In this document: positions 15,319 to 29,388 of the stretch, piece after piece
How positions within the stretch are numbered: the first letter of the stretch is position 1
Layout of the letters: the number at the start of each line of letters is the position of its first letter
Assembly: GCA_027007005.1 (NCBI GenBank)
Contig: JALTFO010000009.1
Coordinates: forward strand, 1-35,527
DNA length: 35,527 nt
Source of the DNA: Candidatus Bipolaricaulota bacterium
GTDB lineage: Bacteria; Bipolaricaulota; Bipolaricaulia; UBA7950; UBA9294
Reading direction: 5' to 3'
Notes under the pieces: generated by a model
Databases searched by the model: none
What the model was told of the DNA's origin: nothing
Seen by the model: the letters and a program-made list of their open reading frames with translations, nothing else
Made by a program: the position numbers and the translations under genes

Positions 15319-15347
15319 TTGACACGTGAGAAGAAAAGTGTTATACA
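15319..15347 (+). promoter_or_regulatory. Consensus promoter of the korC-malic enzyme operon
   Basis: TTGACA at 15319-15324, 17 nt, TATACA at 15342-15347 (TACAAT at 15344-15349 overlaps it). The perfect -35 box and ideal spacing make this the strongest promoter seen in the window. The predicted start is near 15354, giving a leader of about 85 nt before korC. Confidence 0.8.
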
Positions 15348-15360
15348 ATTTTCCTGCTGG

Positions 15361-15390
15361 TGTTTGTGAACGTGAGCACAAGCACAAACA
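15361..15390 (+). promoter_or_regulatory. Rex-like operator within an inverted repeat
   Basis: The 18-bp site TTGTGAACGTGAGCACAA at 15364-15381 matches the Rex consensus TTGTGAA-N4-TTCACAA at 12 of 14 defined positions, with the left half perfect. It starts just downstream of the -10 box, where a bound repressor would block transcription. A second, overlapping repeat pairs TGTTTGTG (15361-15368) with CACAAACA (15383-15390) and could form an 8-bp hairpin in the leader RNA. Rex senses the NADH/NAD ratio and commonly controls fermentation genes. No rex gene is in the window. Confidence 0.45.
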
Positions 15391-15439
15391 GCCTGCAATA
15401 CAAATACACAAGTTGTCTGCGACAATGAGGAGCGAATCG

Positions 15440-15982
15440 ATGCGAATGGAGATTCGGTTTGCAGGTTTCGGCGGCCAGGGAGTGATTTCTGCCGCCAAAA
15501 TCTCTGGACGGGCCGCTGCAATCAACGATAACCTAAACGCTGTTCTAACCCAATCGTACGGCCCAGAAGCACGCGGCGGTGCGTGTAACGCTAATGTAGT
15601 TATCTCGCAAGAGAGGATTGCCTATCCAGAAGTAACACTTCCTAATCTTTTGGTAATTCTATCTCAGGAAGCGTACACCACCTTTGGTTCAACCATCGCC
15701 CCGGGAGGAACGTTGATCGTTGATGAGAACTTGGTCGACGTGGGCAAGGTTCCAACTGGCGTTCACCTGTACAAGGTGCCGGCAACGAAACTGGCGGAAG
15801 AGTTAGGAAACAGGATCGTCGCCAATGTGGTCATGCTAGGAGCGGTCGTAGCTATGACCGGTATGGTGAGCAAGAATGCGATGCTGGATTCGGTGCGCGC
15901 CTCGGTTCCTGCTCGCTTCCTCGAATTGAACGAGCGCGCATTTGAAACCGGCTACAACTACGGGAGGAAGCTGAAATCATGA
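15440..15982 (+). CDS. korC: 2-oxoglutarate:ferredoxin oxidoreductase gamma subunit
   Basis: Gamma chain of the four-part 2-oxoacid:ferredoxin oxidoreductase. The 180 residues begin MRMEIRFAGFGGQGVISAAK, the family hallmark (GxGGQG), and contain TQSYGPEARGGACNANVVIS. ATG 15440 is chosen because GAGGAG lies 7 nt upstream and the length then matches the family; the longer frame from 15326 runs through the promoter and operator. It overlaps hdrA by 4 nt. Its partners korD, korA and korB lie 8 kb downstream in the same operon, separated by the Hdr/Mvh/Frd genes. Specificity for 2-oxoglutarate is inferred from the sucCD, fumarase and Frd neighbours. Confidence 0.9.
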   Translation: MRMEIRFAGFGGQGVISAAKISGRAAAINDNLNAVLTQSYGPEARGGACNANVVISQERIAYPEVTLPNLLVILSQEAYTTFGSTIAPGGTLIVDENLVDVGKVPTGVHLYKVPATKLAEELGNRIVANVVMLGAVVAMTGMVSKNAMLDSVRASVPARFLELNERAFETGYNYGRKLKS

Positions 15983-17934
15983 GCCGAATCGGCGTCTTTG
16001 TCTGTCACTGTGGGATGAACATCGAGGAGACGGTCGACACACATCGGGTGGCGGATACGCTGAAGCTGTACCCCGGTGTCGTGCATGCGGAGGACTATGA
16101 TTACATGTGCTCCGAGATCGGGCAACAGAAGATCCGTGACGCGATCGTGGAACACAACCTGGATGGAGTGGTCGTCGCTTCCTGTACCCCGGCGATGCAC
16201 CAGGAGACGTTCCGCAATGCCGCCGAAGAAGTGGGGTTAAACCGTTATCGCTTAGAAGTGGCTAACATCCGCGAGCAGGTCAGTTGGGTCCATTCTGACC
16301 GGGAAGTGGCAACACAGAAGGCGATTCGCATGGCGCGAGCCGCGGTGGAAAAGGTCCGCGGGGATGATGATCTGGAGCCGATTGCTGTAGAGCACGAGAC
16401 TAAGTGTCTTGTCATCGGCGGCGGGATCAGCGGGATTCAGGCAGCAATCGATGTCGCCAACAGCGGCCATAAGGTAATCCTAGTGGAGAAGGATCCGAGC
16501 ATCGGTGGCCATATGGCACAACTGTCGGTCACATTCCCCACCCTTGATTGTGCTCAGTGCATCCTCACCCCGCGCATGGTGGAAGCATCGCGTCACCCGA
16601 ACATCGAGCTTCTCACCTACAGCGAAGTGGTAAAAGTCGCTGGCTTCATGGGAAACTATGAAGTAACGATTCGCAAGAACCCGACCTACGTAGACGCGGA
16701 CAAGTGCAACCTGTGCGATAAGTGCTCTGAGGTTTGTCCGGTAAGTGTGAAGGAGGAATTCAACGAGGGGCTCTCCGAACGCAAGGCGATCTACATGCCA
16801 TTCGAGCAGGCAATCCCCTCATCCTACGTGCTGGATGAGAATGCCTGCCTGGGGGTGAAACCGATCCGTTGCGGCCTCTGTCAGGATGTGTGCGATGTTG
16901 GGGCAATCAACTACGACATGGCCCCCGAAATGATTACCGAGAAGGTGGGGACGATCATCGTCGCCACCGGCTACGACGTGTACGATCCCAGCCACCTCAC
17001 CGAGTACGGCGGAGGGAAGTATCCCGACGTTGTAACCTCTCTTCAGTTTGAGCGGATGGTCCACCCCTCTGGCCCGATGAAGGGGCAACTGCGTCGGCCC
17101 TCCGATGGCAGGCCGGTGAAGAGCATTGCCTTCGTCCACTGTGCTGGCTCGCGTGATCCCGAAAGGCATAAACCTTATTGCTCGCGCATCTGTTGCACGT
17201 ACACTGCCAAACAGGCGCTCCTGTTCAAGAAAGGAGTACCTGATGGGGTGGCGAACGTGTTCTACATCGACATTCGCACCGACGGGAAGGGATATGAAGA
17301 GTTCGCGCAGGGGATCATCTCCGATAAGCGCCCTCGTTACATCAGGGGGAAGGTCGCCAAGGTCGTCGATGAGGGAGATCACCTCACCGTGTGGGGAGCG
17401 GATACCCTGAGTGGGAAACGGATGGAGATCGATGTCGACCTGGTTGTGCTAGCGATGGCCATGGTTCCCAGTGAAGGGACTGCTGAGTTGGCCAAGACGC
17501 TCCACATCAATGTCGACGAGAACGGTTTTCTCAAGGAAGCCCACCTCAAGCTGCGCCCGGTGGAGACAACGACCGCAGGAGTGTTCATTGCCGGCACGGC
17601 GCAAGGACCGAAGGATATCCCCGACTCGGTGGCGCAGGGAAGCGCGGCGGCAGCGAAGGCAATTGCCATCCTCTCCGCAGACGAGCTCAGCCACTCTCCC
17701 GAAGTGGCAGCGGTCGATGAACAGCTCTGCTCGGGGTGCGGGATCTGCGCGAGCGTCTGTCCGTACGATGCCATCAAGGTTGAGCGGTCAGGGATCGCAG
17801 TGGTGAATGAGATCCTCTGTTCGGGGTGTGGTGTCTGTGCCGCATCCTGCCCAGCAGGGGCGATCGAGGTCAAGAACGAGCGGCACGCGCAGATCGAAGA
17901 GATGATCGGCGTCGCGTTGGGAAGTGAGAAATGA
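15979..17934 (+). CDS. hdrA: HdrA, flavin-based electron-bifurcating subunit
   Basis: HdrA carries the FAD that splits electron pairs between a high-potential acceptor (via HdrBC) and ferredoxin. The 651 residues show an N-terminal domain with IGVFVCHCGMNIEETVD (Cys9, Cys11, plus Cys44 and Cys69), the FAD-binding LVIGGGISGIQAAID near 144-158, and a CAQC pair at 191-194. Inserted ferredoxin clusters are at Cys243/246/249/253 and Cys290/298/301/305. Two C-terminal [4Fe-4S] motifs are at Cys584/587/590/594 and Cys614/617/620/624. All cluster ligands appear intact and no Sec codon is needed. It is the standard single-copy form. 4-nt overlaps with korC and mvhD tie it to both. Confidence 0.95.
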   Translation: MSRIGVFVCHCGMNIEETVDTHRVADTLKLYPGVVHAEDYDYMCSEIGQQKIRDAIVEHNLDGVVVASCTPAMHQETFRNAAEEVGLNRYRLEVANIREQVSWVHSDREVATQKAIRMARAAVEKVRGDDDLEPIAVEHETKCLVIGGGISGIQAAIDVANSGHKVILVEKDPSIGGHMAQLSVTFPTLDCAQCILTPRMVEASRHPNIELLTYSEVVKVAGFMGNYEVTIRKNPTYVDADKCNLCDKCSEVCPVSVKEEFNEGLSERKAIYMPFEQAIPSSYVLDENACLGVKPIRCGLCQDVCDVGAINYDMAPEMITEKVGTIIVATGYDVYDPSHLTEYGGGKYPDVVTSLQFERMVHPSGPMKGQLRRPSDGRPVKSIAFVHCAGSRDPERHKPYCSRICCTYTAKQALLFKKGVPDGVANVFYIDIRTDGKGYEEFAQGIISDKRPRYIRGKVAKVVDEGDHLTVWGADTLSGKRMEIDVDLVVLAMAMVPSEGTAELAKTLHINVDENGFLKEAHLKLRPVETTTAGVFIAGTAQGPKDIPDSVAQGSAAAAKAIAILSADELSHSPEVAAVDEQLCSGCGICASVCPYDAIKVERSGIAVVNEILCSGCGVCAASCPAGAIEVKNERHAQIEEMIGVALGSEK

Positions 17935-18356
17935 GTGACGATACGGGATTTGAGCCGAAAATAATAGCATTTCTGTGTAAGTGGACGACCTATGCTGCTG
18001 CCGATCTGTGCGGAGTCAGCCGGATGCCGTATCCATCGAACATCTCCATCATCCGCGTCAACTGCACGGGTGAGGTGACAGCGGACATGATCCTATCCTC
18101 TTTTGCAAAGGGGGCTGATGGCATCCTCATCGGTGGTTGCCGGCCTGGACACTGTCGTTACGAGGATGGAAACCTCAAGGGATCAAACGGGGTCTACCTG
18201 CTGAAGCGAGCTCTGAAGGAATTCGGTGTCAACCCGGATCGAATTCGCGAGGTCGGCATTGCCGGTGCGCAGGGGTTGATCTTCCAACGGGCGGTGGAGA
18301 AGTTCACTGCCGATATTCGCGCCATGGGGCCGTGCCCGGTGATGTCCAATGCCTAA
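17931..18356 (+). CDS. mvhD: MvhD-like [2Fe-2S] subunit, one Cys changed
   Basis: MvhD passes electrons from the hydrogenase part (MvhAG) to HdrA. The 141 residues follow the family: FLCKWTTYAAADLCGVSR, MPYPSNISIIRVNCTGEV, GADGILIGGCRPGHCRYEDGN. The usual CNWCSY reads CKWTTY, so the second Cys of the first pair is Thr19. Cys16, Cys45, Cys70 and Cys75 remain, and an extra Cys27 stands where Ala is usual. Four ligands for one [2Fe-2S] cluster could still be supplied. It overlaps hdrA by 4 nt and mvhG by 8 nt. Confidence 0.88.
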   Translation: MSDDTGFEPKIIAFLCKWTTYAAADLCGVSRMPYPSNISIIRVNCTGEVTADMILSSFAKGADGILIGGCRPGHCRYEDGNLKGSNGVYLLKRALKEFGVNPDRIREVGIAGAQGLIFQRAVEKFTADIRAMGPCPVMSNA

Positions 18357-19242
18357 CAAGAAGACGTTGGCAATCTACACGGCCGGTGGGTGTGGTGGAT
18401 GTGGACAGTCGTTGCTATTGAGCCCTAATTTTGCCTCGTTGCTGGACAGGGTTGACCTTCTCTTCTGGGCGAGCTCCGCTTCCGACCTGACAGATGAGGA
18501 GATCTCGACTTACGATGACCGTGGGATAGATCTTCTCATCTATGCAGGCACCGTTCGCGGGAACGAAAGCATCGCTACGGCCAATCTCCTGCGCGCCAAG
18601 GCAAAGCGGGTCGTCGCTTACGGAGCGTGCGCGCACCTCGGCGGGCTGTGCGGACTAGCAAATGTCTATCCAGGAGCGCAGTTACGTGCTCTTCCTAGTG
18701 CCGACGGACAGTTTGTTCAGCCGCTCTCCTCAGTGATCGATGTTGACTACATCCTCCCGGGGTGCCCTCCGCCGCAGGAAATGGTGACAAGGATGGTGGA
18801 GGAGCTGTTCATATCCGATGTGCTCCCCAAAGAAGGGACAGTCTTTGCCTCGGATAAGGCGGTTTGCGCGCAATGCGATCGCAAACACGTGCATAAACCT
18901 CTCACCAGTATCAGAAGGTTTCATGCCGAACCGCCCGATCCGGAGATCTGCCTCATCGACCAGGGCTACATCTGCCTGGGGCCGGTGACGCGTGGTGGGT
19001 GCGGCGCCGTTTGCCTGAAGTCAAACCGCCCGTGCACTGGGTGTGCCGGGCCGGTAGCCGGAGTGCGGGATCAGGGAGGGGCAATACTGCACGCCCTTGC
19101 CTCCCTCGTCTCCTTCCCCGGTACCGATACAGGAAGAAAGGAGCATCAGGTGCTTGATTCGATACCGGATGTCATCGGCACAACGTACAAGTACTCCGCG
19201 GCCTCCTCGATCCTTAAAAGGAGGGTAAGCGATGGTAAGTAG
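18349..19242 (+). CDS. mvhG: MvhG-like NiFe-hydrogenase small subunit
   Basis: Electron-transfer subunit of F420-non-reducing hydrogenase. In 297 residues the proximal cluster ligands are all present (Cys15 and Cys18 in GGCGGCG, Cys94 in YGACAHLGG, Cys139 in PGCPPP). The C-terminal half has the Cys sets for two more [4Fe-4S] clusters: CAQC, then the stretch from EICL to PCTGCAGP with YICLGPVTRGGCGAVC. The Fe-S wire is therefore intact although the catalytic partner downstream is not. An electron donor must enter at or near this subunit. It overlaps mvhD by 8 nt and the mvhA-like gene by 11 nt. Confidence 0.9.
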   Translation: MPNKKTLAIYTAGGCGGCGQSLLLSPNFASLLDRVDLLFWASSASDLTDEEISTYDDRGIDLLIYAGTVRGNESIATANLLRAKAKRVVAYGACAHLGGLCGLANVYPGAQLRALPSADGQFVQPLSSVIDVDYILPGCPPPQEMVTRMVEELFISDVLPKEGTVFASDKAVCAQCDRKHVHKPLTSIRRFHAEPPDPEICLIDQGYICLGPVTRGGCGAVCLKSNRPCTGCAGPVAGVRDQGGAILHALASLVSFPGTDTGRKEHQVLDSIPDVIGTTYKYSAASSILKRRVSDGK

Positions 19243-20530
19243 AGTAATCAACCTTATCCCTGCGTTCGGCGAGGTCGTGCTGTGGAAGAAGGCGGGCCTT
19301 AGGGCGCGGGTTTCGGTGCCGGAAGGAGCCGCTGGCTTCTCATCGTTTATGCGCGGTCGGCTGGCCGAGGATGTTCCCCTTTACGTGCAGCGGATCGATG
19401 CCCATTGCGCTGTGCCGCAGCATTTGGCGGCGGTGAGTGCGCTCGATCGCTGCTATCACGTGGCGCCCCCGAAGAAGGCGATGGCCATGCGCCGAGCACT
19501 TGCTTATGCTGGTTTCTACTTCCATCACTTAGAGGAGCTGTTCTTGAGCCGCGTAGGTGGAAGCGACGGTATCTCGGGGTTGATCAGCACAGACGAATCG
19601 CTCTCAGCGGAGGATGTCTTCTCTGCCCTAAGCCTTTCACAGGGGTTGATCACGCTCCTTGGTGGGCGAGCGATCACCCCCGAGCGAGGGATCCCCGGTG
19701 GGCTGACATCTGGAATCAGCGGTGAGGCGATCGCTCAGGCGAAACGGGACGCTTCGAAGCTTCTCAGCTTTGCCCTGCAGGCAGAAGAGACCTTCCGCGC
19801 CTCCGGTGCAGCGTGGGTGAAGGCGCAGGAGCTCATCGTCCCAGCCTATTCCCTGGCCACGGTCGATGAGGAGGGAGCGATCAGCCTGTACGATGGCGAT
19901 CTGCGTATCGTCGATGAGCGTGGTAAGGAACTGGCAAAGGGCGAGGCAAATGGCATTCTGACCAAGCTCTTGGCCTGGAAGGAGGAGCTGCCACTTCGTG
20001 TTGGGCCTCTCGCCCGATTGAACGTCGGCAAGATCTCGACACCGCAGGCAAGATCACTCCAGGAAGAGATGTTAAGCGCGTTGGGGGAACCGCCGCTTCA
20101 CCTGCTCAGTGCAGGTCATTGGCAGACGGTGATCGAGCTCGTGCAGTCCTGCGAACTCCTTGCGCAGGCGCTAAACGACCTTGAGAGTGGAAACTCGGGT
20201 ATCACCTCTCCGCTTGGCGAGCCCGATGAGGGGACCGCAGCGATCGAGGGAGGAAACGGGACGACCGTCCATCGCTACGTGCTCGATGAACAGGGGATCG
20301 TTCAGGAGGCACAGGTCTTCCTCCCGCGGCGTGCGCAGGCTGAGAGCATCAATGCGTCCTTGGCATCTGTCATCGGAAGCGACGGTGAAGTCAGCGAGGC
20401 GACGATAGAAAGAATCGCTGACGTGATCCGCGCCCACCGTCCGGCGTTTGTTCCCACTGCTCCGCTCCCGCTACGAGTTACTCTGCGCGATGAGGCGGGG
20501 AACGCATCCCAGGAATGGAGGAGACCATGA
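19232..20530 (+). CDS. Degenerate NiFe-hydrogenase large subunit (MvhA-like)
   Basis: The 432 residues keep the large-subunit layout, but the metal site is lost. At the L1 motif the family reads RICGLCxVxHxLAAxxAxD. Here residues 54-72 read RIDAHCAVPQHLAAVSALD, so the first Cys is Asp56 and the conserved His is Gln63; only Cys59 remains. The C-terminal L2 motif DPCxxCxxH is missing: the protein ends LRDEAGNASQEWRRP with no Cys in the last 100 residues. There is thus no C-terminal maturation site and no NiFe cofactor, and no hydrogenase maturation gene is in the window. Infer a structural core for MvhG or a docking site for another donor, similar to the 49-kDa subunit of complex I. It overlaps hdrC by 4 nt. 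Confidence 0.82.
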   Translation: MVSRVINLIPAFGEVVLWKKAGLRARVSVPEGAAGFSSFMRGRLAEDVPLYVQRIDAHCAVPQHLAAVSALDRCYHVAPPKKAMAMRRALAYAGFYFHHLEELFLSRVGGSDGISGLISTDESLSAEDVFSALSLSQGLITLLGGRAITPERGIPGGLTSGISGEAIAQAKRDASKLLSFALQAEETFRASGAAWVKAQELIVPAYSLATVDEEGAISLYDGDLRIVDERGKELAKGEANGILTKLLAWKEELPLRVGPLARLNVGKISTPQARSLQEEMLSALGEPPLHLLSAGHWQTVIELVQSCELLAQALNDLESGNSGITSPLGEPDEGTAAIEGGNGTTVHRYVLDEQGIVQEAQVFLPRRAQAESINASLASVIGSDGEVSEATIERIADVIRAHRPAFVPTAPLPLRVTLRDEAGNASQEWRRP

Positions 20531-20958
20531 CCAAAAAGAAGCAGGCAACGGGCGAGGAACAACTCGCTCTCCTTGAGCTATCGATGGACGAGATCGTTGA
20601 TAAGATCGAGGAGCTCTCGGGTGAGAACGTATTTGACTGCTACCAGTGTGGAATGTGCTCAGCGGGCTGCCCGATGGCAGACGAGATGGATCTCCTCCCC
20701 AATCAGGTGCTACACGCGCTGCAGGTGAAGGATCCAGAGGTGATGAGCGCTAACTCGATGTGGATCTGCGCTAGCTGTTACACGTGCCAGGTGCGCTGCC
20801 CGAAGGGAGTGGATCTAGCCAAGGTGATGGAGGCGATGCGCCAGATCTACCTGCGCAAGCAGCTTGATAATGTCCCACTCGACGACCTTAGCCACCGTGA
20901 GATTCGCCACCTGCCGCAGATCGCGGTTGTCGCATCATTCAGAAAGAAGACCGGGTGA
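20527..20958 (+). CDS. hdrC: HdrC, iron-sulfur electron transfer subunit
   Basis: Carries electrons from HdrA to HdrB. From ATG 20527 the protein has 143 residues, with two complete [4Fe-4S] motifs: Cys38/41/44/48 (CYQCGMCSAGCPM) and Cys81/84/87/91 (CASCYTCQVRCP). ATG 20527 is preferred to ATG 20515 because GGAGGAG sits just before it and it makes the usual ATGA overlap with the preceding stop. There is no membrane anchor (it is not the HdrE/DsrM type), so the complex is cytoplasmic. It overlaps hdrB by 4 nt (GTGA). Confidence 0.93.
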   Translation: MTKKKQATGEEQLALLELSMDEIVDKIEELSGENVFDCYQCGMCSAGCPMADEMDLLPNQVLHALQVKDPEVMSANSMWICASCYTCQVRCPKGVDLAKVMEAMRQIYLRKQLDNVPLDDLSHREIRHLPQIAVVASFRKKTG

Positions 20959-21839
20959 AAGAATTGGAGAAATTAACGTATTTTCCTGGCTGTACATTGA
21001 AGGACACCGCGCGGGATTTCGAGATCTCGGGGATGGCGGTGATGGAGGCGCTTGGTTATGAACTGGAGGAGCTGGAGCGGTGGAACTGCTGCGGAACGGT
21101 CTTCTCCCTCACTGAGGATGATCTGATGCACCAGGTGGCCCCGGTGCGCGACCTGCTGCGAGCACAGGAGGCGGGATCAGAGGAGATCATCACCCTCTGC
21201 TCCATGTGCTACGCCACGCTCAAGCGGACGAGCCTGTTCGTGAACGGGAATCAAGAGCGGTTGGACAAGCTGAACGCGTTCATGAATAAAGAGGTCGATT
21301 ACGAGGGGAAGGTGAGCGTACACCATCTGCTCGAGGTTCTGCGTGACCGCATCGGATGGGAGAAGATCGAGGAGCGGATCACAAACCCCTTGGAGGGGCT
21401 GAACGTAGCTCCGTTCTACGGGTGCACCCTCCTGCGTCCTAAGGAGATCGCGATCGACGATACCGATGCCCCGACTGTGCTGCAGGACCTAACAACAGCG
21501 CTGTGGGCGACCCCGGTCGACTACCCCTACGCAGTGGAGTGCTGCGGGGCGTACCAGGTGGTCGATCATCGTGAGGTCGTTGTCGAGAGGACACACCGCA
21601 TTCTTAGCGCGGCGCGGCGGGCGGGAGCAGATGTGGTGATCGCCAGTTGTCCATTATGTCATCATAATTTGAGCGATACACAGAAGGAACTTATCCGGAC
21701 AATCCCCGATTACGAGGAGATGCCGATTATCTATTTCACCCAGCTGATGGCGCTGGCGTACGGCGTTGAGGCGGGGAAGATACCCGCCTCACTCAAGGCC
21801 AAAATAAAGCACCTTCAGACGGTCAAGGGGGAGGGATGA
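20955..21839 (+). CDS. hdrB: HdrB, CCG-domain subunit with noncubane Fe-S sites
   Basis: In methanogens HdrB holds the two noncubane [4Fe-4S] clusters that reduce the heterodisulfide. The 294 residues have both CCG domains intact: YFPGCTL, WNCCGTVFSL and LCSMCYATL; then FYGCTLLRP, VECCGAYQ and SCPLCHHNL. All Cys expected for two noncubane clusters are present. This bacterium is not expected to make CoM-S-S-CoB, so another disulfide, or direct transfer to FrdB encoded 1 nt downstream, is likely. Methanogen TfrB carries an HdrB-like domain fused to the iron-sulfur subunit of fumarate reductase, and the hdrC-hdrB-frdB order here resembles that fusion in split form. Confidence 0.93.
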   Translation: MKELEKLTYFPGCTLKDTARDFEISGMAVMEALGYELEELERWNCCGTVFSLTEDDLMHQVAPVRDLLRAQEAGSEEIITLCSMCYATLKRTSLFVNGNQERLDKLNAFMNKEVDYEGKVSVHHLLEVLRDRIGWEKIEERITNPLEGLNVAPFYGCTLLRPKEIAIDDTDAPTVLQDLTTALWATPVDYPYAVECCGAYQVVDHREVVVERTHRILSAARRAGADVVIASCPLCHHNLSDTQKELIRTIPDYEEMPIIYFTQLMALAYGVEAGKIPASLKAKIKHLQTVKGEG

Positions 21840-21840
21840 G

Positions 21841-22560
21841 ATGGCGAGTAAGAAACCAGAAAGAGAAATGATCCGCATTCATGTGATGGGGAAGACCTAC
21901 GAGGTTCCTGCTGGTCTGACGATCATGGATGCGATGGAGTATGCGGGCTACCGGTTCACGCGTGGGGCCGGTTGTCGATCGGGTTTTTGCGGTGCGTGTT
22001 CCACCGTCTATCGGCACGAGGGGGACTACCGGCTGCAGTTTGCCCTGGCTTGTCAGGAGACGGCGCAGGATGGGATGTACCTGGTACAGCTCCCGTTCAC
22101 CCCTGCTCCGCGGGTCAATTACGACATCGAAAAGATCAATCCCAAGGAGAATGTGCTCCTGCAGTACTACCCGGAGATAGCACGGTGCGTCTCTTGTAAC
22201 ACGTGTACCAAGGCCTGCCCGCAGGACATCCAGGTGATGGACTACATTCAGGCGGCGCTTAGAGGCGACATCGCGAAGACGGCGGAGCTATCGTTTGACT
22301 GCATCCAGTGTGGCCTGTGCAGCATGCGCTGTCCAGCCGACATCAAGCACTACCACATGGCGCAGATGGCGCGGCGCGTCTACGGGCGGTACATGTCACC
22401 GGTGCCACAACACCTTGAGGATCGCCTGCAGGAGATTGCGGAGGGAAAATTCGACGCTGAACTAGACCGGCTGGTCGGTATGAGTCGGGAGGAACTCGAG
22501 GCTGCGTATGCGGCCCGAGTGCGAGAGGAAGCACCAGCGGGGAGTGAGAGAAGTGAGTAA
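21841..22560 (+). CDS. frdB: Fumarate reductase-type iron-sulfur subunit
   Basis: The 239 residues contain a plant-type [2Fe-2S] domain (Cys45, Cys50, Cys53, Cys71 in GAGCRSGFCGAC...ACQE). Two full ferredoxin motifs follow, at Cys116/119/122/126 (CVSCNTCTKACP) and Cys154/157/160/164 (CIQCGLCSMRCP). Quinone-linked SdhB/FrdB has a [3Fe-4S] cluster because the second motif lacks one Cys; here that Cys is present, so two [4Fe-4S] clusters are predicted. With no SdhC/D-type membrane subunit in the operon, the protein should be soluble and linked to HdrBC, not to quinone. The C-terminal 70 residues are charged and helical. It overlaps frdA by 8 nt. Confidence 0.88.
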   Translation: MASKKPEREMIRIHVMGKTYEVPAGLTIMDAMEYAGYRFTRGAGCRSGFCGACSTVYRHEGDYRLQFALACQETAQDGMYLVQLPFTPAPRVNYDIEKINPKENVLLQYYPEIARCVSCNTCTKACPQDIQVMDYIQAALRGDIAKTAELSFDCIQCGLCSMRCPADIKHYHMAQMARRVYGRYMSPVPQHLEDRLQEIAEGKFDAELDRLVGMSREELEAAYAARVREEAPAGSERSE

Positions 22561-24214
22561 GAAGGGATTTGTCGGCGGTTACCCGGCGTACATGCGCGAG
22601 TCGATCGAAAAGGTAGAGGCGACAAGGAGCAAGCGGCTGAAGGAAGGGCCACTTCCCCCGATGAGCCCGGAGGAGAGGGAAGCGATCCTGGAACGCAACC
22701 ACCCCGACTACAAGCCGAGCGGGAAGCGAAAGCTGGCCCTAGGTCCTTCCGCTGGAGAGATGGTCCCACACGAGGTGGCGGATATCATCGAGTCGCACCC
22801 GGTGATCGATCCGCGCAGCGTTGATCTATCCAAGGTAGACTACGACGTTGATGTACTGGTTATCGGTGGCGGAGGAGCAGGGACAGTGGCGGCGATCTTC
22901 GCCCACGAGCAGGGAATACCTGTAGATCGGATACTGATCGTCACCAAGCTGCGGCACGGGGACTGCAACTCGATTATGGCGCAGGGCGGAATTCAGGCGG
23001 CGGATCGGCCACAGGACTCGCCCGCGATCCATTACTTGGACGTGATGGGGGGCGGGCATTATGCCAACAAGCCGGAACTGGTGCGAGCGCTCGTCAGCGA
23101 TGCTCCGGGGATCATCCGCTGGCACGAGGATATGGGCGTGATGTACGACAAGATCGATGGCGAGTACATGGAGGCGCACGGCGGTGGGACATCGCGCATG
23201 CGCATGCACTCGGCGAAGGACTACACGGGCAAGGAGACGTTCAACGCCATTCGCGATCAAGCACGCAACCTGAACATTCCTGTTCTCGAGTTCTTCCCAG
23301 CGGTGGAGTTGCTCCTCGACAAGCACGGGCACGCAGCGGGCGCGGTCGTTTACAACATTGAGACGGAGGAGTACCGGATCATCCGCGCCAAAGCGACCGT
23401 ATTGGCGACCGGCGGGTTCGGTCGTATCCACATACAGGGCTTCCCGACGACCAACCACTACGGAGCGACGGCGGACGGGCTGGTGATGGCCTACCGTGCT
23501 GGAGCGAACATCATCGACATGGATTCAGTGCAGTATCATCCGACGGGTGTCGCCTTCCCCGCGGCGATCCTTGGCCAATTGGCGACGGAGAAGCTGAGAA
23601 ACCAGGGAGCGATGCCGGTGAACAAGGACGGTGAAGCGTTCGTCTTCCCGCTCGAACCGCGCGATGTGGAATCTGCGGCATTCATCGAGGAGTGCTGGGT
23701 GAAGAACAAGGGGATCGAGACGCCGAGTGGGATCCGTGGCGTATGGCTCGACACCCCGATGATCGATGCGATTCACGGGAAGGGGACGATTAAGCAGGCT
23801 CTTGCAGCGATGTGGACGATGTGGCATCGGCATGATATCGACATCACGGTCGATCCGGCGCTGGTCTACCCCACGCTCCACTATCAGAACGGAGGGGTGG
23901 AGATCGATGCCAACGGTTACACCCGCGTTCCCGGCCTGTTCGCTGGTGGTGAGTGCGAGGGAGGAGTGCACGGGAAGAACCGGCTGATGGGAAACTCGCA
24001 GCTTGACTACAACGTGTTCGGTCGTCGGGCTGGTATCTCTGCTGGCAAGTGGGCAAAGGAGGCTAAAGTGGACGAATTGTCCCTGCAGCACGTGATTGAC
24101 TACGAGCAGGCGCTGGAGAAGGCCGGGATAGATACCGACCGCAAGGCGCCGATCATCCTCCCCGACTACCGACCGGAGAGCGTGCGTGAGCGGACACTCG
24201 GGCATCTGCTATGA
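22553..24214 (+). CDS. frdA: Fumarate reductase/succinate dehydrogenase-like flavoprotein
   Basis: Proposed to interconvert fumarate and succinate. From GTG 22553 it has 553 residues. About 98 charged N-terminal residues precede the FAD-binding DVLVIGGGGAG (from residue 100), which is unusual for FrdA. Active-site residues in place are Arg349 (TEKLR), His443 (PTLHYQNGG) and Arg477 (KNRLMGNS), with VQYHPTG at 326-332. The covalent-FAD His of SdhA/FrdA is replaced by Asn139 (DCNSIMAQGG), so FAD is predicted to be non-covalent. The TGxH-type His is absent (TGKET). The C-terminal helical domain is short. Related families (L-aspartate oxidase, AprA, TfrA) share these traits; the role is assigned from the sucCD and fumarase neighbours. 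GTG 22553 is chosen over the longer frame because it follows a purine-rich site and overlaps frdB by 8 nt. Confidence 0.82.
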   Translation: MSKKGFVGGYPAYMRESIEKVEATRSKRLKEGPLPPMSPEEREAILERNHPDYKPSGKRKLALGPSAGEMVPHEVADIIESHPVIDPRSVDLSKVDYDVDVLVIGGGGAGTVAAIFAHEQGIPVDRILIVTKLRHGDCNSIMAQGGIQAADRPQDSPAIHYLDVMGGGHYANKPELVRALVSDAPGIIRWHEDMGVMYDKIDGEYMEAHGGGTSRMRMHSAKDYTGKETFNAIRDQARNLNIPVLEFFPAVELLLDKHGHAAGAVVYNIETEEYRIIRAKATVLATGGFGRIHIQGFPTTNHYGATADGLVMAYRAGANIIDMDSVQYHPTGVAFPAAILGQLATEKLRNQGAMPVNKDGEAFVFPLEPRDVESAAFIEECWVKNKGIETPSGIRGVWLDTPMIDAIHGKGTIKQALAAMWTMWHRHDIDITVDPALVYPTLHYQNGGVEIDANGYTRVPGLFAGGECEGGVHGKNRLMGNSQLDYNVFGRRAGISAGKWAKEAKVDELSLQHVIDYEQALEKAGIDTDRKAPIILPDYRPESVRERTLGHLL

Positions 24215-24498
24215 AAGGTGAGACAGTGGACAAAGCAAACACGGGCAGTCGCTGGAACACAGCGAATGGGACGATCACCATCGTCGATGATCTGTGCAAG
24301 GGGTGCGGTCTGTGCATCGAGTTCTGTCCGATACAGGTTTTAGGGAAATCAGAGCACTTCAATGAGAAGGGGTATCATTATCCGGAGATGCTTGAGCCGG
24401 AGAAGTGTGTAAACTGTGGTTACTGCCAGCTCCTCTGCCCCGATTTTGCCATCTGGAGCGAGCGTGACGATAAACAAGAAGGTGAGAGGGATGAGTAA
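24211..24498 (+). CDS. korD: 2-oxoglutarate:ferredoxin oxidoreductase delta (ferredoxin) subunit
   Basis: Ferredoxin-like chain of 95 residues with two [4Fe-4S] motifs, Cys29/32/35/39 (CKGCGLCIEFCP) and Cys66/69/72/76 (CVNCGYCQLLCP), spaced as in KorD/PorD. It carries electrons from the thiamine diphosphate site to free ferredoxin. The 4-nt overlap with frdA and 8-nt overlap with korA place it between the fumarate reductase and KOR genes. An internal ATG-like alternative start is GTG 24226. Confidence 0.92.
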   Translation: MKGETVDKANTGSRWNTANGTITIVDDLCKGCGLCIEFCPIQVLGKSEHFNEKGYHYPEMLEPEKCVNCGYCQLLCPDFAIWSERDDKQEGERDE

Positions 24499-25636
24499 CA
24501 AGGATATCCTGGCTGGGGAGTACTTCCTAAACGGAGACGTTGCCTGCGCCGAGGGGGCGATAGCCGCTGGTTGTCGGCTGTTCGCCGGCTACCCGATCAC
24601 CCCGCAATCGGAGATCACCGAAAGGATGGCGCTCCGGCTACCCATAATCGGTGGCTATTTCCTCCAGATGGAGGATGAGCTGGCATCGATCGCTGCCATC
24701 CTTGGCGGAGCATGGGGAGGGATGAAGGCGATGACAGCTACCTCCGGCCCTGGATTCTCTCTGATGATGGAGAACCTCGGTCTGGGGATCATGACCGAGA
24801 CCCCATGCGTAGTCGTAGATGTACAGCGCGGTGGGCCAAGCACCGGCCTTCCGACCGCCACCTCGCAGGGAGACATGATGCAGGCGCGCTGGGGGACGCA
24901 CGGTGACCACGAGATCATCGCCTTTGCGCCCGCCTCGCCGCAGGAGATGTTCGACCAGACAGTGAAGGCGTTCAATCTGTCGGAGCACTTCCGACAACCA
25001 GTGCTGATCATGGCCGACGAGGTGGTGGGGCACATGATGGAGCGGGTGACTATCGACCCAGACAAGATCGAGATCTACCCGCGGCGCAAGCCGAGTGTTC
25101 CCTATGACAGGTTCTTACCGTATAAGGGTGGCGCCGACCTCGTCCCGGAGATGGCCTGCGCTGGAGATGGATATCGGATACATGTGACTGGCCTGACCCA
25201 CGACGAGCACGGCTATCCGGACCTGACGGTGGAGAGCCAGAAGAAGCTGATGGAGCGATTGATGAACAAGATCCGGTTGAACGCTGATGAGATAATCGAG
25301 GTAGAGGAAGAGAACACACGCGGTGCGGATGTCGTCCTCGTCACGTACGGGATCGCTGCACGCACATCGCTGCGGGCGATAGAACTGGCGGCGGAGAAAG
25401 GGATCAAGGTGGGGATGCTGCGGTTGATCACGGTGTGGCCGTTCCCAGCAAAGGAGGTGCGCGCGATCGCCGGTGAGGTGAAGGGGATCATCGTCCCGGA
25501 ACTGAACTTGGGCCAGATGGTGCGCGAAGTGGAGCGAGCTGTCGCTGGAAAGTGCCCGGTGCGCCTTGTTCCCCACGCTGGCGGCGGCTTACACCGGCCG
25601 GAAGACATCCTCGCAGCAATCGAGGAGGTGGCATAG
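24491..25636 (+). CDS. korA: 2-oxoglutarate:ferredoxin oxidoreductase alpha subunit
   Basis: The 381 residues contain the 2-oxoacid oxidoreductase signature GDVACAEGAIAAGCRLFAGY with YPITPQSEI, then MEDELASIAAILGGAWGGMK, TATSGPGFSLM and QRGGPSTGLPT. They match the KorA arrangement in which the gamma domain is separate (korC). The C-terminal transketolase-like domain (VVLVTYGIAARTSLRA) follows near residue 270. The start at ATG 24491 has GGTGAGAGG upstream and overlaps korD by 8 nt. korB starts on the next base after the stop. Confidence 0.94.
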   Translation: MSNKDILAGEYFLNGDVACAEGAIAAGCRLFAGYPITPQSEITERMALRLPIIGGYFLQMEDELASIAAILGGAWGGMKAMTATSGPGFSLMMENLGLGIMTETPCVVVDVQRGGPSTGLPTATSQGDMMQARWGTHGDHEIIAFAPASPQEMFDQTVKAFNLSEHFRQPVLIMADEVVGHMMERVTIDPDKIEIYPRRKPSVPYDRFLPYKGGADLVPEMACAGDGYRIHVTGLTHDEHGYPDLTVESQKKLMERLMNKIRLNADEIIEVEEENTRGADVVLVTYGIAARTSLRAIELAAEKGIKVGMLRLITVWPFPAKEVRAIAGEVKGIIVPELNLGQMVREVERAVAGKCPVRLVPHAGGGLHRPEDILAAIEEVA

Positions 25637-26521
25637 ATGAGACACGTTATGACCAAGCCCGTACCAGAGATGGTACAGGATGCCCATCATCCGCTGGAGC
25701 ACTACTTCAGAAGCGAGCGTCTACCGCACATCTGGTGCCCGGGATGCGGCCTGGGGACGTCTATGTCCTGCTTGGCAGCGGCGTTTGGCCACCTCAAGCT
25801 TGATGTAGATGATGTTTCCGTCGTCTCGGGGATCGGTTGTTCTGGCCGGCTCGCCGGTTACATGCGCCCCGATTCCTACCACACCACGCATGGGCGAGCC
25901 CTCCCGTTTGCCACGGGCTTGCGAGTAGCACTGGAGAAGACCAAGCCCGGCCACAAGGTGGTCGTGTTCAGCGGAGACGGAGACTTGTTCTCCATCGGAG
26001 GGAACCACTTCATCCATGCCGCGCGCCGAAACATCGACCTAAGTGTGTTCTGCGTCAACAATTTCAACTACGGGATGACCGGTGGACAGGTTGGACCGAC
26101 AACGCCTCTCGGATCAAAGGGGACGACGGCCCCCTACGGGATGTTCGAGCACCCGTTCAACCTCCCCTACCTTGCTGCCTCGTCCGGCGCCCCCTACGTT
26201 GCGCGGTGGACGACGCTGCACGTGCATCGTCTCCAGCAGGCGATGGAAGAGGCAATCCAGAAGCGTGGGTTCACCTTTGTGGAGATTATCGCTCCATGTC
26301 CGACTAACTACGGTCGCAAGAATGGGCTCCCTACCGGCCTCGACGAGATGCGCTACTACAGCGAGAAGGCAGTGATCGAGAACTTCGCCGATCCGAAGGA
26401 CGCAGACATCATCCCGGGCAAGGAATTCATCGTTGGTACGTTCGTAAACGAGGACAAGCCCGACTACCTGGAGATCTACGATAAATTCGTACGTGATCAC
26501 TTTGGAGGCAAAGAGAAGTGA
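25637..26521 (+). CDS. korB: 2-oxoglutarate:ferredoxin oxidoreductase beta subunit
   Basis: Thiamine diphosphate-binding chain of 294 residues. WCPGCGLGTSMSC carries cluster/TPP-side Cys residues. The TPP-Mg motif runs GDGDLFSIGGNHF to NNFNYGMTGGQ (GDG...N type), and TTPLGSKGTTAPYG is typical of KorB. It decarboxylates 2-oxoglutarate to succinyl-CoA with reduction of ferredoxin, or carboxylates succinyl-CoA in the reverse direction. Start and stop abut korA and overlap fumA by 4 nt. Confidence 0.94.
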   Translation: MRHVMTKPVPEMVQDAHHPLEHYFRSERLPHIWCPGCGLGTSMSCLAAAFGHLKLDVDDVSVVSGIGCSGRLAGYMRPDSYHTTHGRALPFATGLRVALEKTKPGHKVVVFSGDGDLFSIGGNHFIHAARRNIDLSVFCVNNFNYGMTGGQVGPTTPLGSKGTTAPYGMFEHPFNLPYLAASSGAPYVARWTTLHVHRLQQAMEEAIQKRGFTFVEIIAPCPTNYGRKNGLPTGLDEMRYYSEKAVIENFADPKDADIIPGKEFIVGTFVNEDKPDYLEIYDKFVRDHFGGKEK

Positions 26522-27378
26522 GCAGCGATGAGGTGATCGAGCACCTAGTCTCCGCGATCCGTCAGGCGGAGACGGTCCTTCCCCAGGACGTGGTCAGCGC
26601 CCTGAAACAGGCAAAGGAAGTGGAGAGCGGTGCTGCGCGTGTGCAGCTTGAGGCGATGTTGAAGAACGCCGATGCAGCGCGCGATGGGTCGATACCGATG
26701 TGCCAAGACACGGGTATTCAGAGCTTCATAGTGCGTGCCGGTGCCAAATTCCCGGGCCTCTCTGCACTGCGTTCACAGATCATCGCTGCCGTGCGGCGCG
26801 CTACATCCGAGGTGCCCCTGCGGCCGAACACGGTCCATCCGTTCACCGGGGACAATCCCGGCGACAACGTTGGCGAGCACATTCCCTATATCAGTTGGGA
26901 GATCGTTGATGGCGATAGCTGTGCGATCGACCTTTTGCCCAAAGGCGGTGGGAGCGAGAACTGCGCTGCACTGGGGATGCTCCCGCCCGGAGTGGGGATC
27001 AATGGAGTCAAGCGGTTCATCGTCGATCATGTGGTCGGCTGCGGTGGGAAACCGTGCCCGCCGGGGATCGTGGGCGTGGGGATCGGTGGAGGTGCCGATC
27101 TATCACTCAAGCTCGGCAAGCTGTCGCTGTTGCGCCCGGTCGGCTCCCGCCATCCTGAGGGGAAGATTGCGGCTTTAGAAGAGGAGCTGCGCGATCTGAT
27201 CAACGCTAGCGGGATCGGGCCGATGGGTTTGGGAGGAAGAACGACCTGCCTTGATGTGCACATTGAGTACGCGCATAGACACCCCGCCTCCCTTCCTGTG
27301 GGGATCGTCTATCAGTGTTGGAGCGATCGGCGAGCGCGGGTGACGATCGATGCTAGTGGAAAGATCGAGGTGACCTAG
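26518..27378 (+). CDS. fumA: Class I fumarase alpha subunit (split form)
   Basis: Oxygen-sensitive [4Fe-4S] fumarate hydratase, N-terminal (TtdA-like) chain of 286 residues. Three cluster Cys are seen in PMCQDTG, GSENCAAL and VVGCGGKPCPPGIVGVG; RPNTVHPFTGDNPGDNVG is also typical. The GTG start at 26518 overlaps korB (GTGA). It converts fumarate to malate together with the beta chain; L-tartrate dehydratase is the usual alternative for this family, but the neighbours favour fumarase. Confidence 0.92.
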   Translation: MSSDEVIEHLVSAIRQAETVLPQDVVSALKQAKEVESGAARVQLEAMLKNADAARDGSIPMCQDTGIQSFIVRAGAKFPGLSALRSQIIAAVRRATSEVPLRPNTVHPFTGDNPGDNVGEHIPYISWEIVDGDSCAIDLLPKGGGSENCAALGMLPPGVGINGVKRFIVDHVVGCGGKPCPPGIVGVGIGGGADLSLKLGKLSLLRPVGSRHPEGKIAALEEELRDLINASGIGPMGLGGRTTCLDVHIEYAHRHPASLPVGIVYQCWSDRRARVTIDASGKIEVT

Positions 27379-27969
27379 ATGGAACGTATACTCACTACAC
27401 CGATCTCGGAATCAGAGGCGCGTGACCTGCATGTGGGGGATGTGATATACATTACCGGCACGATCTTCACCGCGCGCGATGAAGCTCACCTGATGATGCT
27501 GGAAAAGGGAGAACCGTTTCCCGTAGATGGCCTAGCCGTTTACCACTGTGGCCCAGTCGTGCAAAAAAAGGATGGAAGGTGGAGGATCGTCTCTGCAGGG
27601 CCGACGACGTCGGCGCGGATGGAGATCTTCGAGGATCGCTTCCTGGAGAAGTTCCCGGTGAGGGTTATCATCGGCAAGGGGGGGATGGGCGAGAAGACAC
27701 TTGCTGCCCTCCACAAGGTAGGCGCGGTCTACACCCACTACACCGGCGGAGCGGGGGCACTCGCCGCGCGGGCGATCAGTGAGGTCAGCGATGTCCATTG
27801 GCTCGACAAGCTGGGGATGCCCGAGGCAGTGTGGGTCCTCTCCGTTGAAAAGTTCGGCCCGCTCACAGTGGCGATGGACTCTCACAGCGAGAGCCTGTAT
27901 AACACTGTAGGCAAGACGGTGAGCGAGAACATGAAAACGATCCATGACAGAATTGAAAGGAGCAAATGA
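27379..27969 (+). CDS. fumB: Class I fumarase beta subunit (split form)
   Basis: C-terminal (TtdB-like) chain of 196 residues, beginning directly after the alpha stop. It has LHVGDVIYITGTIFTARDEAH, VYHCGPVV, AGPTTSARM, IIGKGGMG and GAVYTHYTGGAGALAARAI, all standard for the beta domain. It overlaps the malic enzyme gene by 4 nt, consistent with malate being handed to that enzyme. Confidence 0.93.
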   Translation: MERILTTPISESEARDLHVGDVIYITGTIFTARDEAHLMMLEKGEPFPVDGLAVYHCGPVVQKKDGRWRIVSAGPTTSARMEIFEDRFLEKFPVRVIIGKGGMGEKTLAALHKVGAVYTHYTGGAGALAARAISEVSDVHWLDKLGMPEAVWVLSVEKFGPLTVAMDSHSESLYNTVGKTVSENMKTIHDRIERSK

Positions 27970-29327
27970 TGGGCGAGGAGAAACTGAGCGTAGAAGAGAT
28001 GAAGCGGCGGGCGGAGATCCCCGCCAAGAAGGCACCAGGGTGGCATGCGTTCTACCGTGGGAAGATAGAGACGACGCTCAAGTGTGCCGTCACTGATGTG
28101 AGCGACTTCGGGATCTGGTACACCCCAGGCGTGGCTGCCCCGTGCAGGGAGATCGAGGCCGATCAGAGCAAGGTGTTCGACTACACGAACAAGGCAAATA
28201 CAGTTGCCGTTGTCTCAGACGGGTCGCGCGTCCTCGGGTTGGGGAACATTGGGCCGCACGCTGGCCTTCCGGTGATGGAGGGGAAGGCACTCCTGTTCAA
28301 GTACCTTGGCGGAGTGGGGGCGTTCCCGATCATGCTCGATACTCAGGACCCAGAGGAGATCATCCAGGCGGTGAAGTGGATTGCCCCCGCATTCGGTGGG
28401 GTGAACCTAGAGGACTTTGCCAATCCGAAGTGCTTCTACATCCTCGATCGCCTGAGGGAGGAGCTCGACATCCCTGTCTGGCACGACGATCAGCAGGGGA
28501 CAGCGTCGATCACCCTTGCTGGGTTGATCAACGCCCTCAAGGTTGTCGGAAAGGACATAAACAAGATCACCTACTGCGTCATCGGGACCGGTTCGGCGAA
28601 CGTCGCCTTCGTGCGCATCCTCCTCTCCGCCGGTGTCCCTGCCGGTAACGTGATCATGGTCGATAGCAAAGGAATCTTACATCCTGGTCGCGAGGACCTG
28701 GAGAAGAATCAGGACAAGAACCCCTACAAGTGGCACTACGCCCAGGTGACGAACGCCGAGCATCGTACCGGTGACATGGCAGATGCCATAGCGGGAAGCG
28801 ACGTACTGATCGCTGCCTCTAAGCCTGGCCCAGGGACAATTAAGCAAGAATGGCTACAGGCGATGAACAAGGACGCCATTGCGTTCATTATGGCTAATCC
28901 AACACCGGAGATCTGGCCGTGGGAGGCAAAGGAGGCCGGGGTGCGCATCGTCGGCACGGGAAGGTCCGACTTCCCAAACCAGGTCAACAACTCGATCGGC
29001 TTTCCCGGGATCTTCCGCGGTACGCTTGACGTCTTTGCCAAGACGATCACCGACGAGATGGCAATCGCCGCCGCGCACGCTATAGCGGAGACGGCGGAGA
29101 AGAAGGGAATAAACGACAATTACATCGTCCCTACGATGATGGAAACTGAAGTGTTCGTAAACGAGGCGGTCGCCGTGGGTCTGAAGGCGATCGAACAGGG
29201 GATCGCGCGGCGTATCCTTACCGAAGACGAACTGCGCAACGAAGCCGAGACGAAGATCCGCCACGCACAAGCCGAGACGAAGATCTTAATGGACGCAGGA
29301 CACATCCCTCCTCCACCGAGCGATTGA
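27966..29327 (+). CDS. maeB: Malic enzyme (NAD(P)-dependent, decarboxylating)
   Basis: Interconverts malate and pyruvate plus CO2. The 453 residues show [38 protein letters not shown] split over two blocks (substrate and nucleotide binding), [17 protein letters not shown] with the metal-binding Asp pair, and a Rossmann motif [15 protein letters not shown]. The size fits the short bacterial type without the phosphotransacetylase-like tail. Cofactor choice cannot be read with certainty. It ends the operon and, with fumarase, closes the route between succinate and pyruvate. Starts at ATG 27966 or 27969 are both served by AAGGAG. Confidence 0.93.
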
Positions 29328-29352
29328 GGCAAAGAGGAAACATACAAACATG

Positions 29353-29388
29353 AAAGCCGGCCCATTTGTGAGCCGGCTTTTGTTTTTT
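29353..29388 (+). terminator. Rho-independent terminator of the kor-hdr-frd operon
   Basis: A 9-bp stem (AAAGCCGGC 29353-29361 with GCCGGCTTT 29372-29380) with a 10-nt loop is followed by TTTTGTTTTTT. It lies 26 nt after the malic enzyme stop. Confidence 0.92.

Follow-up and report, generated by a model that had tools for sequence, protein, structure and literature searches.

Fumarate reductases encoded together with heterodisulfide reductase (Hdr) modules have precedents in the literature. Williams et al. (2021; PMC8542988), in the sections considered here, report a thiol:fumarate reductase (TFR), a 2-oxoglutarate:ferredoxin oxidoreductase (OGOR), fumarase, SucCD, Mvh and Hdr in one cluster of Ca. 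Celaenobacter (Cloacimonadota), and propose an H2-driven reductive tricarboxylic acid (TCA) flux through TFR and CoM-S-S-CoB. The Elp-Hdr complex of M. marburgensis (PDB 8rvu; PMC12350162) provides an experimental precedent for an Hdr with a catalytically dead donor subunit, ElpA, and SdhA has been reported from Culexarchaeia as a neighbour of HdrBC, together with a membrane hydrogenase (PMC9723716). Here, we analyze a 15-gene hdr-mvh-frd-kor operon of an uncultured, anaerobic Candidatus Bipolaricaulota bacterium, located in a stretch of 35,527 nucleotides (assembly GCA_027007005.1, contig JALTFO010000009.1, positions 1 to 35,527; hereafter the window). The source genome, G000, comprises 2.67 Mb in 307 contigs and is 92% complete, with 6.6% contamination; the named relatives whose loci come closest assign it to Bipolaricaulota (Acetothermia).

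Our results indicate that this operon is real and widespread, and that it probably functions as a bifurcating fumarate reductase. Particularly, we consider it fairly likely, on the grounds of gene content and conserved residues, that its product is a soluble fumarate reductase/succinate dehydrogenase with flavin-based bifurcation (confurcation in reverse), whose ferredoxin is shared with the 2-oxoglutarate:ferredoxin oxidoreductase (KOR) of the same operon. An earlier sequence-only reading of this DNA knew of no described enzyme of this composition, a view not supported in light of the same gene set in the Celaenobacter cluster, as far as the sections of PMC8542988 considered here go. A bifurcating fumarate reductase operon is thus of a known or already proposed kind, and what is new is its hydrogenase-dead branch: an MvhA without the [NiFe] site, here MvhA*, yet under purifying selection in the source genus and one sister genus. 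In the open-licence literature that was searched, no paper came up on an Hdr-Frd operon whose MvhA lacks the [NiFe] site, which is not proof of novelty.

Organization of the operon

The 15 genes lie in frame on the + strand (15326-29327) in the order korC-hdrA-mvhD-mvhG-mvhA*-hdrC-hdrB-frdB-frdA-korDAB-fumAB-mae, bounded by a promoter-like site from 15319 and a terminator at 29353-29380. Gene calls, family matches and the lack of any CxxC in MvhA* bear out the gene order, the family assignments and the lost [NiFe] site of the sequence-only reading. The features of the locus are:

13275..14444, +, sucC, succinyl-CoA synthetase beta (NF001913, 6e-164)
14441..15307, +, sucD, succinyl-CoA synthetase alpha (NF004230, 3e-132)
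15319-15347, +, promoter-like site TTGACA-17-TATACA (from sequence; nearly identical in G003)
15361-15390, +, perfect 8-bp inverted repeat TGTTTGTG-N14-CACAAACA, just 3' of the -10 (also in G003)
15440..15982, +, korC, 2-oxoacid:ferredoxin oxidoreductase gamma (PF01558, 1e-36; NF006323, 1.6e-59 from residue 39)
15979..17934, +, hdrA, bifurcating FAD subunit by family match (NF040770, HdrA2, 5.8e-237; PDB 5odc_A, 3.8e-197)
17931..18356, +, mvhD (FlpD/MvhD), [2Fe-2S] connector (PF02662, 1.7e-40)
18349..19242, +, mvhG (VhuG), hydrogenase small-subunit homologue (NF045875, 2.7e-40)
19232..20530, +, mvhA*, [NiFe] large-subunit homologue without the [NiFe] site (weak VhuA match, NCBIfam, 1.4e-27; under the Pfam hydrogenase cut-off)
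20515..20958, +, hdrC, with two [4Fe-4S] motifs (NF041890, 2e-19)
20955..21839, +, hdrB, with two complete CCG motifs (TIGR03288, 3e-48; SdhE-type NF042965, 6e-42; PDB 8rvv_B, 5e-38)
21841..22560, +, frdB, iron-sulfur subunit with 2Fe-2S and two [4Fe-4S] (family matches, motifs, alignment)
22508..24214, +, frdA, fumarate reductase/succinate dehydrogenase flavoprotein (PF00890, 3e-67; TfrA, 1.5e-86)
24211..24498, +, korD, 2x[4Fe-4S] delta subunit (NF042987, OGOR_delta, 1.6e-22)
24491..25636, +, korA, alpha subunit (NF006412, 1.2e-170, over cut-off)
25637..26521, +, korB, TPP-binding beta subunit (NF007207, 2-oxoglutarate ferredoxin oxidoreductase beta, 1.8e-67)
26518..27378, +, fumA, class I fumarase alpha (NF004885, 2e-96, over cut-off)
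27379..27969, +, fumB, class I fumarase beta (NF004708, 9e-68; TIGR00723 over cut-off)
27966..29327, +, mae, malic enzyme (NF009501, 6e-97; 95% identical in G003)
29353-29380, +, intrinsic terminator hairpin with a 12-bp stem and a T-run on both strands (bidirectional)

All four subunits (alpha, beta, gamma and delta) of the 2-oxoglutarate:ferredoxin oxidoreductase are encoded, its 2-oxoglutarate specificity being suggested by the OGOR-type delta and beta matches together with the gene context. Neighbouring genes do overlap or abut, as had been described, the longest overlap being 53 nt and the widest gap 1 nt.

The consensus promoter claimed at the 5' end is only partly consensus. The -35 element TTGACA (15319-15324) is perfect and the spacer is 17 nt, but the -10 element, TATACA, agrees in only 4/6 positions, and for this reason a consensus promoter scan did not list the site at 15319. 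The inverted repeat that follows has 0 mismatches, where 0.07 matches with at most 3 mismatches are expected, and is a candidate operator/regulator site or 5'UTR hairpin. Both the promoter-like element and the sequence behind it, repeat included, are almost identical in G003, a genome of the same genus, and a regulatory role is therefore supported. Regarding start sites, korC very probably begins at ATG 15440 and not at GTG 15326, where its open reading frame opens; this GTG sits at the promoter, and a Shine-Dalgarno sequence, AGGAG, lies upstream, near ATG 15440. The start of korA is ATG 24491, and that of frdA may lie 3' of the listed ATG 22508. The single terminator of the sequence-only reading is real, and G003 has a hairpin of different sequence at the equivalent position.

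The sucC-sucD pair (13275-15307) ends 11 bases 5' of the promoter and falls outside the interval originally described. It also lies directly 5' of the cluster in G003, G004, G005, G016, G022 and G029; since the pair stays in place in G003 as well as in others of the family, the functional unit, judged from gene order, is a 17-gene cluster that covers all steps from 2-oxoglutarate to pyruvate.

Conservation and spread of the Hdr-Frd linkage

A search of genomes for this gene order, suggested along with the sequence-only reading, found 17/17 genes in identical order in G003, at 81-95% protein identity to the source genome except for MvhG (74%) and MvhA* (59%). Near-complete sets with the core order kept are present across other Bipolaricaulota genera and families, including the closed genomes G036 and G038, and in several genera sucCD stands directly 5' of them, so that a chance arrangement is excluded.

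Beyond this phylum, an FrdB profile search of public genomes returned >400 relatives, and gene context was read in the best 80 loci. The frdA gene lies directly 3' of frdB in 74/75 loci with context, while hdrB is immediately 5' of frdB in 46 of the 70 relatives with upstream context and hdr genes stand elsewhere in the locus in 22/70; in sum, 68/70 relatives with this FrdB type, drawn from many bacterial and archaeal phyla, show the hdr linkage. When at least 8 kb is available on both sides (n=33), hdrA is found in 30/33 loci, hdrB in 31/33 and korA in 23/33 (kor within 10 kb), against a chance expectation of ~1% for any one gene in such loci. The hosts include Thermoplasmatota, Bathyarchaeota, Thermoproteota, Theionarchaea, Cloacimonadota, WOR-3, Fermentibacterota and Planctomycetota. 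Across phyla, hdrC-hdrB-frdB-frdA is the most conserved adjacency, and it is kept even in loci that lack kor, fum and mae or have them in another arrangement. This context, far from chance, delineates a fumarate reductase/succinate dehydrogenase that is Hdr-linked and widespread.

These counts bear on the alternative that the operon merely co-regulates separate enzymes, with HdrABC-Mvh bifurcating for other purposes and FrdAB acting as an ordinary soluble fumarate reductase with another donor. Clear non-subunits (fumarase, malic enzyme, SucCD) do share the operon, and kor genes part frdBA from hdrCB in some archaea. Nevertheless, the immediate adjacency of hdrB in 46/70 loci outlasts kor, fum and mae, and FrdB has neither a membrane partner nor an alternative donor subunit, and we regard such independence as improbable.

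Two further observations concern the surveyed loci. In Thermoplasmatota (L093, L111, L121, L125, L138 and L146), two to three successive HdrA-like stretches stand beside frdBA-korDABC and probably represent a multi-domain HdrA; the linkage is the same, but its architecture differs. Additionally, L072, a short contig of a metagenome-assembled genome titled Lentisphaeria, encodes FrdB and FrdA 94-95% identical to those of the source; it probably belongs to Bipolaricaulota and was misbinned or mistitled.

FrdA as the only flavoprotein match of its type

FrdA matches the FAD_binding_2 fold, and its HPTG, PRD, HYxxGG and NRL catalytic motifs align with those of E. coli FrdA; it bears a 110-aa N-terminal extension and lacks the C-terminal Succ_DH_flav_C domain. 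Since the FAD-linking His is replaced (DCNSIMAQGG), the FAD is probably bound non-covalently. FrdB contains a 2Fe-2S motif and two 4-Cys [4Fe-4S] motifs, without the 3Fe-4S pattern of classical SdhB, and all 12 of its Cys are invariant across 46 aligned sequences. The predicted fold of FrdB (pTM 0.52, good per-residue confidence) has E. coli FrdB as best match (6awf_F, TM 0.26), and with query-normalised TM values of at most 0.34 the comparison to known structures is uninformative beyond its domains.

FrdA is the only match to a flavoprotein of the succinate dehydrogenase/fumarate reductase (SDH/FRD) type in the source genome and in the closed genomes G036 and G038. No membrane anchor Sdh_cyt (PF01127) is found in the source genome and six relatives, while control genomes are positive, and a membrane-anchored SDH was accordingly rejected for these 7 genomes. 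Relatives with an anchored frdAB and no hdr genes, named beforehand as the finding that would speak against the proposal, did not appear: these 7 genomes lack the anchor, and 68/70 relatives with context have linked hdr genes. The conserved linkage, the sole FrdA without an anchor and the bifurcation residues of HdrA agree with the treatment of Hdr and Frd as a joint module.

The annotation of the first closed Bipolaricaulota genome lists Hdr-Mvh and no SDH/FRD complex (PMC6092417). In G036 and G038 (L184, L185), a cluster with intact MvhA holds the sole FrdA. The family matches suggest that the SDH/FRD of Bipolaricaulota was overlooked in that annotation, perhaps due to the atypical FrdB and to the FrdA without C-terminal domain.

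Redox centers of Hdr

HdrA, whose identity to methanogen HdrA is ~40% as estimated from the alignment, shows both the FAD domain and the C-terminal ferredoxin clusters. In the alignment to 5odc_A, K411 corresponds to K409 of M. thermolithotrophicus HdrA and the Glu of LQFERM to E356, the two residues proposed as marks of a bifurcating HdrA (PMC12054007). The motif check finds two complete CCG non-cubane cluster motifs in HdrB and two [4Fe-4S] in HdrC, and cluster ligands are complete in HdrB, HdrC, FrdB and KorD.

The intact HdrB raises the question of a thiol:fumarate reductase cycle, in which Hdr would reduce a disulfide by bifurcation and a separate TFR-like FrdAB would oxidize the diffusible dithiol and reduce fumarate. 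In line with this notion, HdrB matches CoB-CoM HdrB at 3e-48 with both CCG motifs kept, the best NCBIfam score of FrdA is to TfrA, and the Cloacimonadota cluster has been read in this way in the sections of PMC8542988 considered here. On the other hand, ComA, an enzyme of coenzyme M biosynthesis, was not found in 7 Bipolaricaulota genomes, which speaks against CoM-S-S-CoB heterodisulfide as the Hdr substrate. Furthermore, the one HdrB beside frdBA would need to serve both disulfide reduction and thiol oxidation, because TfrB fuses the thiol-oxidizing HdrB-like part to FrdB. Quinone-using enzymes of the SdhE type likewise contain a CCG subunit, and HdrB matches this type as well (NF042965, 6e-42). 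We therefore judge a dithiol cycle to be unlikely.

MvhA* has lost the [NiFe] site

In MvhA*, neither CxxC pair is present: RICGVC has become RIDAHC and DPCLACATH has become RPAFVPT, so that the L1 (RxCGxC) and L2 (DPCxxC) ligands are gone. This holds for 4/4 sequences, from G000, G003, G001 and G017, representing the source genus and one sister genus. By contrast, the canonical full-length homologues of related clusters have a CxxC pair at both ends in 31/31 cases, of which 30 read RICGVC/KICGVC and DPCLAC and one (L149) is a variant. The predicted fold is still that of a hydrogenase large subunit (pTM 0.89), with MvhA 5odc_F as best PDB match (TM 0.77, 22% identity). In the alignment, MvhG retains cysteine at the positions known from canonical MvhG.

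Selection on MvhA* is relaxed, yet clearly purifying, with dN/dS of 0.24-0.29 compared to 0.11-0.14 for MvhG within the genus and 0.03-0.10 for most neighbours. A pseudogene was rejected on these values and on the intact frame in 4 genomes of two genera. In the tree, the mvhG and hdrA genes associated with MvhA* form one clade (100/100) on a long branch, whose branching point from the canonical family lineages is not resolved. The simplest reading of these sequences is that the dead block would be an old paralogue, retained as sole copy by the source genus. The module had been called hydrogenase-less, which is true of the source lineage; most cluster relatives, however, carry an intact Mvh, and from this distribution the hydrogenase-less condition is a derived state of the lineage rather than the nature of the module.

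Could Hdr still be linked to H2 by a hydrogenase acting in trans, with MvhA* as a non-essential relic? G017 has an intact hdrA'-mvhD'G'A' block directly 5' of its MvhA* block, and a further [NiFe] hydrogenase is encoded, together with HypD, in G001 and G003. In the 92%-complete source genome, however, neither a [NiFe] hydrogenase above cut-off nor a [FeFe] hydrogenase was found, nor was HypD, and MvhA* is under purifying selection; such a relic is, in our opinion, very improbable. Gene content thus suggests that low-potential electrons are probably made and used here without hydrogen.

The arrangement in G017 (C5, L041 1-10604) is hdrA'-mvhD'-mvhG'-mvhA'([NiFe]) followed directly by hdrA-mvhD-mvhG-mvhA*-hdrC-hdrB-frdB-frdA, a tandem that could give rise to an asymmetric Hdr dimer in which one hydrogenase half is live and the other dead. 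HypD is likewise present in G017 and in G029. The latter was rejected as a natural loss of mvhGA: upstream, its contig also carries an mvhA homologue of canonical length along with hyp genes, which indicates a rearrangement.

Proposed mechanism and energetics

In the bifurcating fumarate reductase that we propose, HdrA would carry the bifurcating FAD and open onto three ports, for ferredoxin, for fumarate/succinate and for a mid-potential carrier. One branch would run HdrC-HdrB-FrdB-FrdA to fumarate/succinate, HdrBC presumably delivering electrons directly to FrdB. The other would end in ferredoxin, common with the KOR of the same operon, and with SucCD, fumarase and malic enzyme the pathway would become a full, reversible pyruvate-malate-fumarate-succinate-succinyl-CoA-2-oxoglutarate segment. 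Most relatives would use H2, through MvhDGA, at the mid-potential port. In the source lineage MvhA* would survive as a scaffold and, on the model of ElpA in methanogen Elp-Hdr, the port would have to take a different carrier. We infer the physical complex, the electron path from HdrB to FrdB, the donor and the direction.

With textbook potentials and assumed values, fumarate-driven ferredoxin reduction is calculated at -13 to -85 kJ per 4 electrons with H2 at >=1e-4 atm, and at -7 to -33 kJ per 4 electrons with NADH at -280 mV. The reverse, succinate oxidation, comes near equilibrium only at ~1e-5 atm H2 and a high succinate:fumarate ratio. Since the first is exergonic and the second only approaches equilibrium, net fumarate reduction with ferredoxin feeding KOR would be the thermodynamically easier direction, in agreement with the forward direction assumed in the sequence-only reading. 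The reverse may be possible for amino-acid fermentation if the mid-potential carrier is kept oxidized.

Several observations weigh against this proposal. The operon has no NAD-dependent electron-input subunit of the NuoF type, and no FrhB/FdhB homologue (PF04432) was found in 5 genomes, a search whose control was positive in methanogens. HdrB with both CCG motifs is compatible with a disulfide/dithiol substrate. Some Thermoplasmatota have frdBA several genes away from hdrCB, in some archaea with kor between them, and the 80 loci hold no Hdr-Frd fusion proteins, only HdrA-MvhD fusions. Finally, the completeness and contamination of the source genome mean that its absences are not absolute.

Regarding the donor, an F420/FrhB-type route as in Elp is unlikely in view of the missing PF04432 match in those 5 genomes, and a [FeFe] hydrogenase was rejected, as none was found in 5 genomes. 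Another contig of the source genome (C102; L174, 1-12000) carries a FocA-FdhA-NuoF-NuoE-NuoF operon, which encodes the formate transporter focA, a NAD-type formate dehydrogenase (897 aa) and comprises two NuoF and two NuoE/HoxE genes. NADH and formate are candidate mid-potential carriers, the C102 operon having no physical link to Hdr. As a tentative and rather doubtful possibility, MvhA*, with its [NiFe] site gone and all MvhG clusters kept, might be more than a bare scaffold: a new, nickel-independent electron port to Hdr, the bacterial counterpart of Elp, reached by the route along which NuoD of complex I arose from hydrogenase large subunits. NAD(P)H, electrons from formate or some other carrier would then drive the bifurcating fumarate reductase.

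If the proposal is true, many uncultured bacteria and archaea would use fumarate/succinate directly as the high-potential partner in flavin-based bifurcation. A quinone-free succinate step and a cheap supply of ferredoxin for KOR would thereby be explained. The SDH/FRD step missing from the annotation of the first closed Bipolaricaulota genome (PMC6092417) would be supplied as well. The existence of a hydrogenase-dead version suggests a module able to become independent of H2 and nickel, as experiments on methanogens have recently shown for theirs, and the intact, dead and displaced MvhGA within one family offer a natural comparison for Hdr electron donors.

Comparison with known systems

Classical complex II (SdhABCD/FrdABCD) has membrane anchors and an SdhB with 2Fe-2S, 4Fe-4S and 3Fe-4S clusters; the source operon is without both features. 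SdhABE/MfrABE (type E, CCG-containing) share with it an HdrB-like CCG subunit beside FrdAB, but these enzymes are quinone-linked, whereas the operon has HdrA and ferredoxin and no anchor. As regards TfrAB of methanogens, the source FrdA is TfrA-like; TfrB fuses FrdB-, HdrC- and HdrB-like regions, whereas in the source these are three separate genes, with partial matches to the TfrB regions, joined to HdrA-MvhD, and its FrdB has two [4Fe-4S] sites of its own.

The six subunits of methanogen HdrABC-MvhAGD (5odc) are recognizable in the source, with K409/E356 of HdrA kept and the MvhA* fold matching at TM 0.77; unlike that complex, the source has no [NiFe] site, and its high-potential end is apparently FrdBA and not CoM-S-S-CoB. 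HdrA2B2C2 of Methanosarcina acetivorans is also a hydrogenase-free Hdr with an MvhD part, and HdrA2 is the best family model for the source HdrA and MvhD; it differs in being F420H2-dependent and heterodisulfide-reducing, with HdrA and MvhD fused and no Frd.

The Celaenobacter cluster has the same gene set as the source operon, and a reductive TCA flux is proposed for it. It differs in its active group 3c [NiFe] hydrogenase, whose site is lost in the source operon, and in CoM-S-S-CoB as high-potential acceptor; the sections of that account considered here proceed without gene order, active-site or selection analysis. With Elp-Hdr, the source shares a donor subunit retained without its catalytic cofactor domain and, probably, an Hdr independent of hydrogenase and nickel. 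ElpA derives from FdhA and is paired with the F420-binding ElpB, whereas the source subunit is MvhA-derived and stands in a genome with no FrhB/FdhB homologue. By this analogy, the source genome would resemble the nickel-free Elp-Hdr switch of methanogens.

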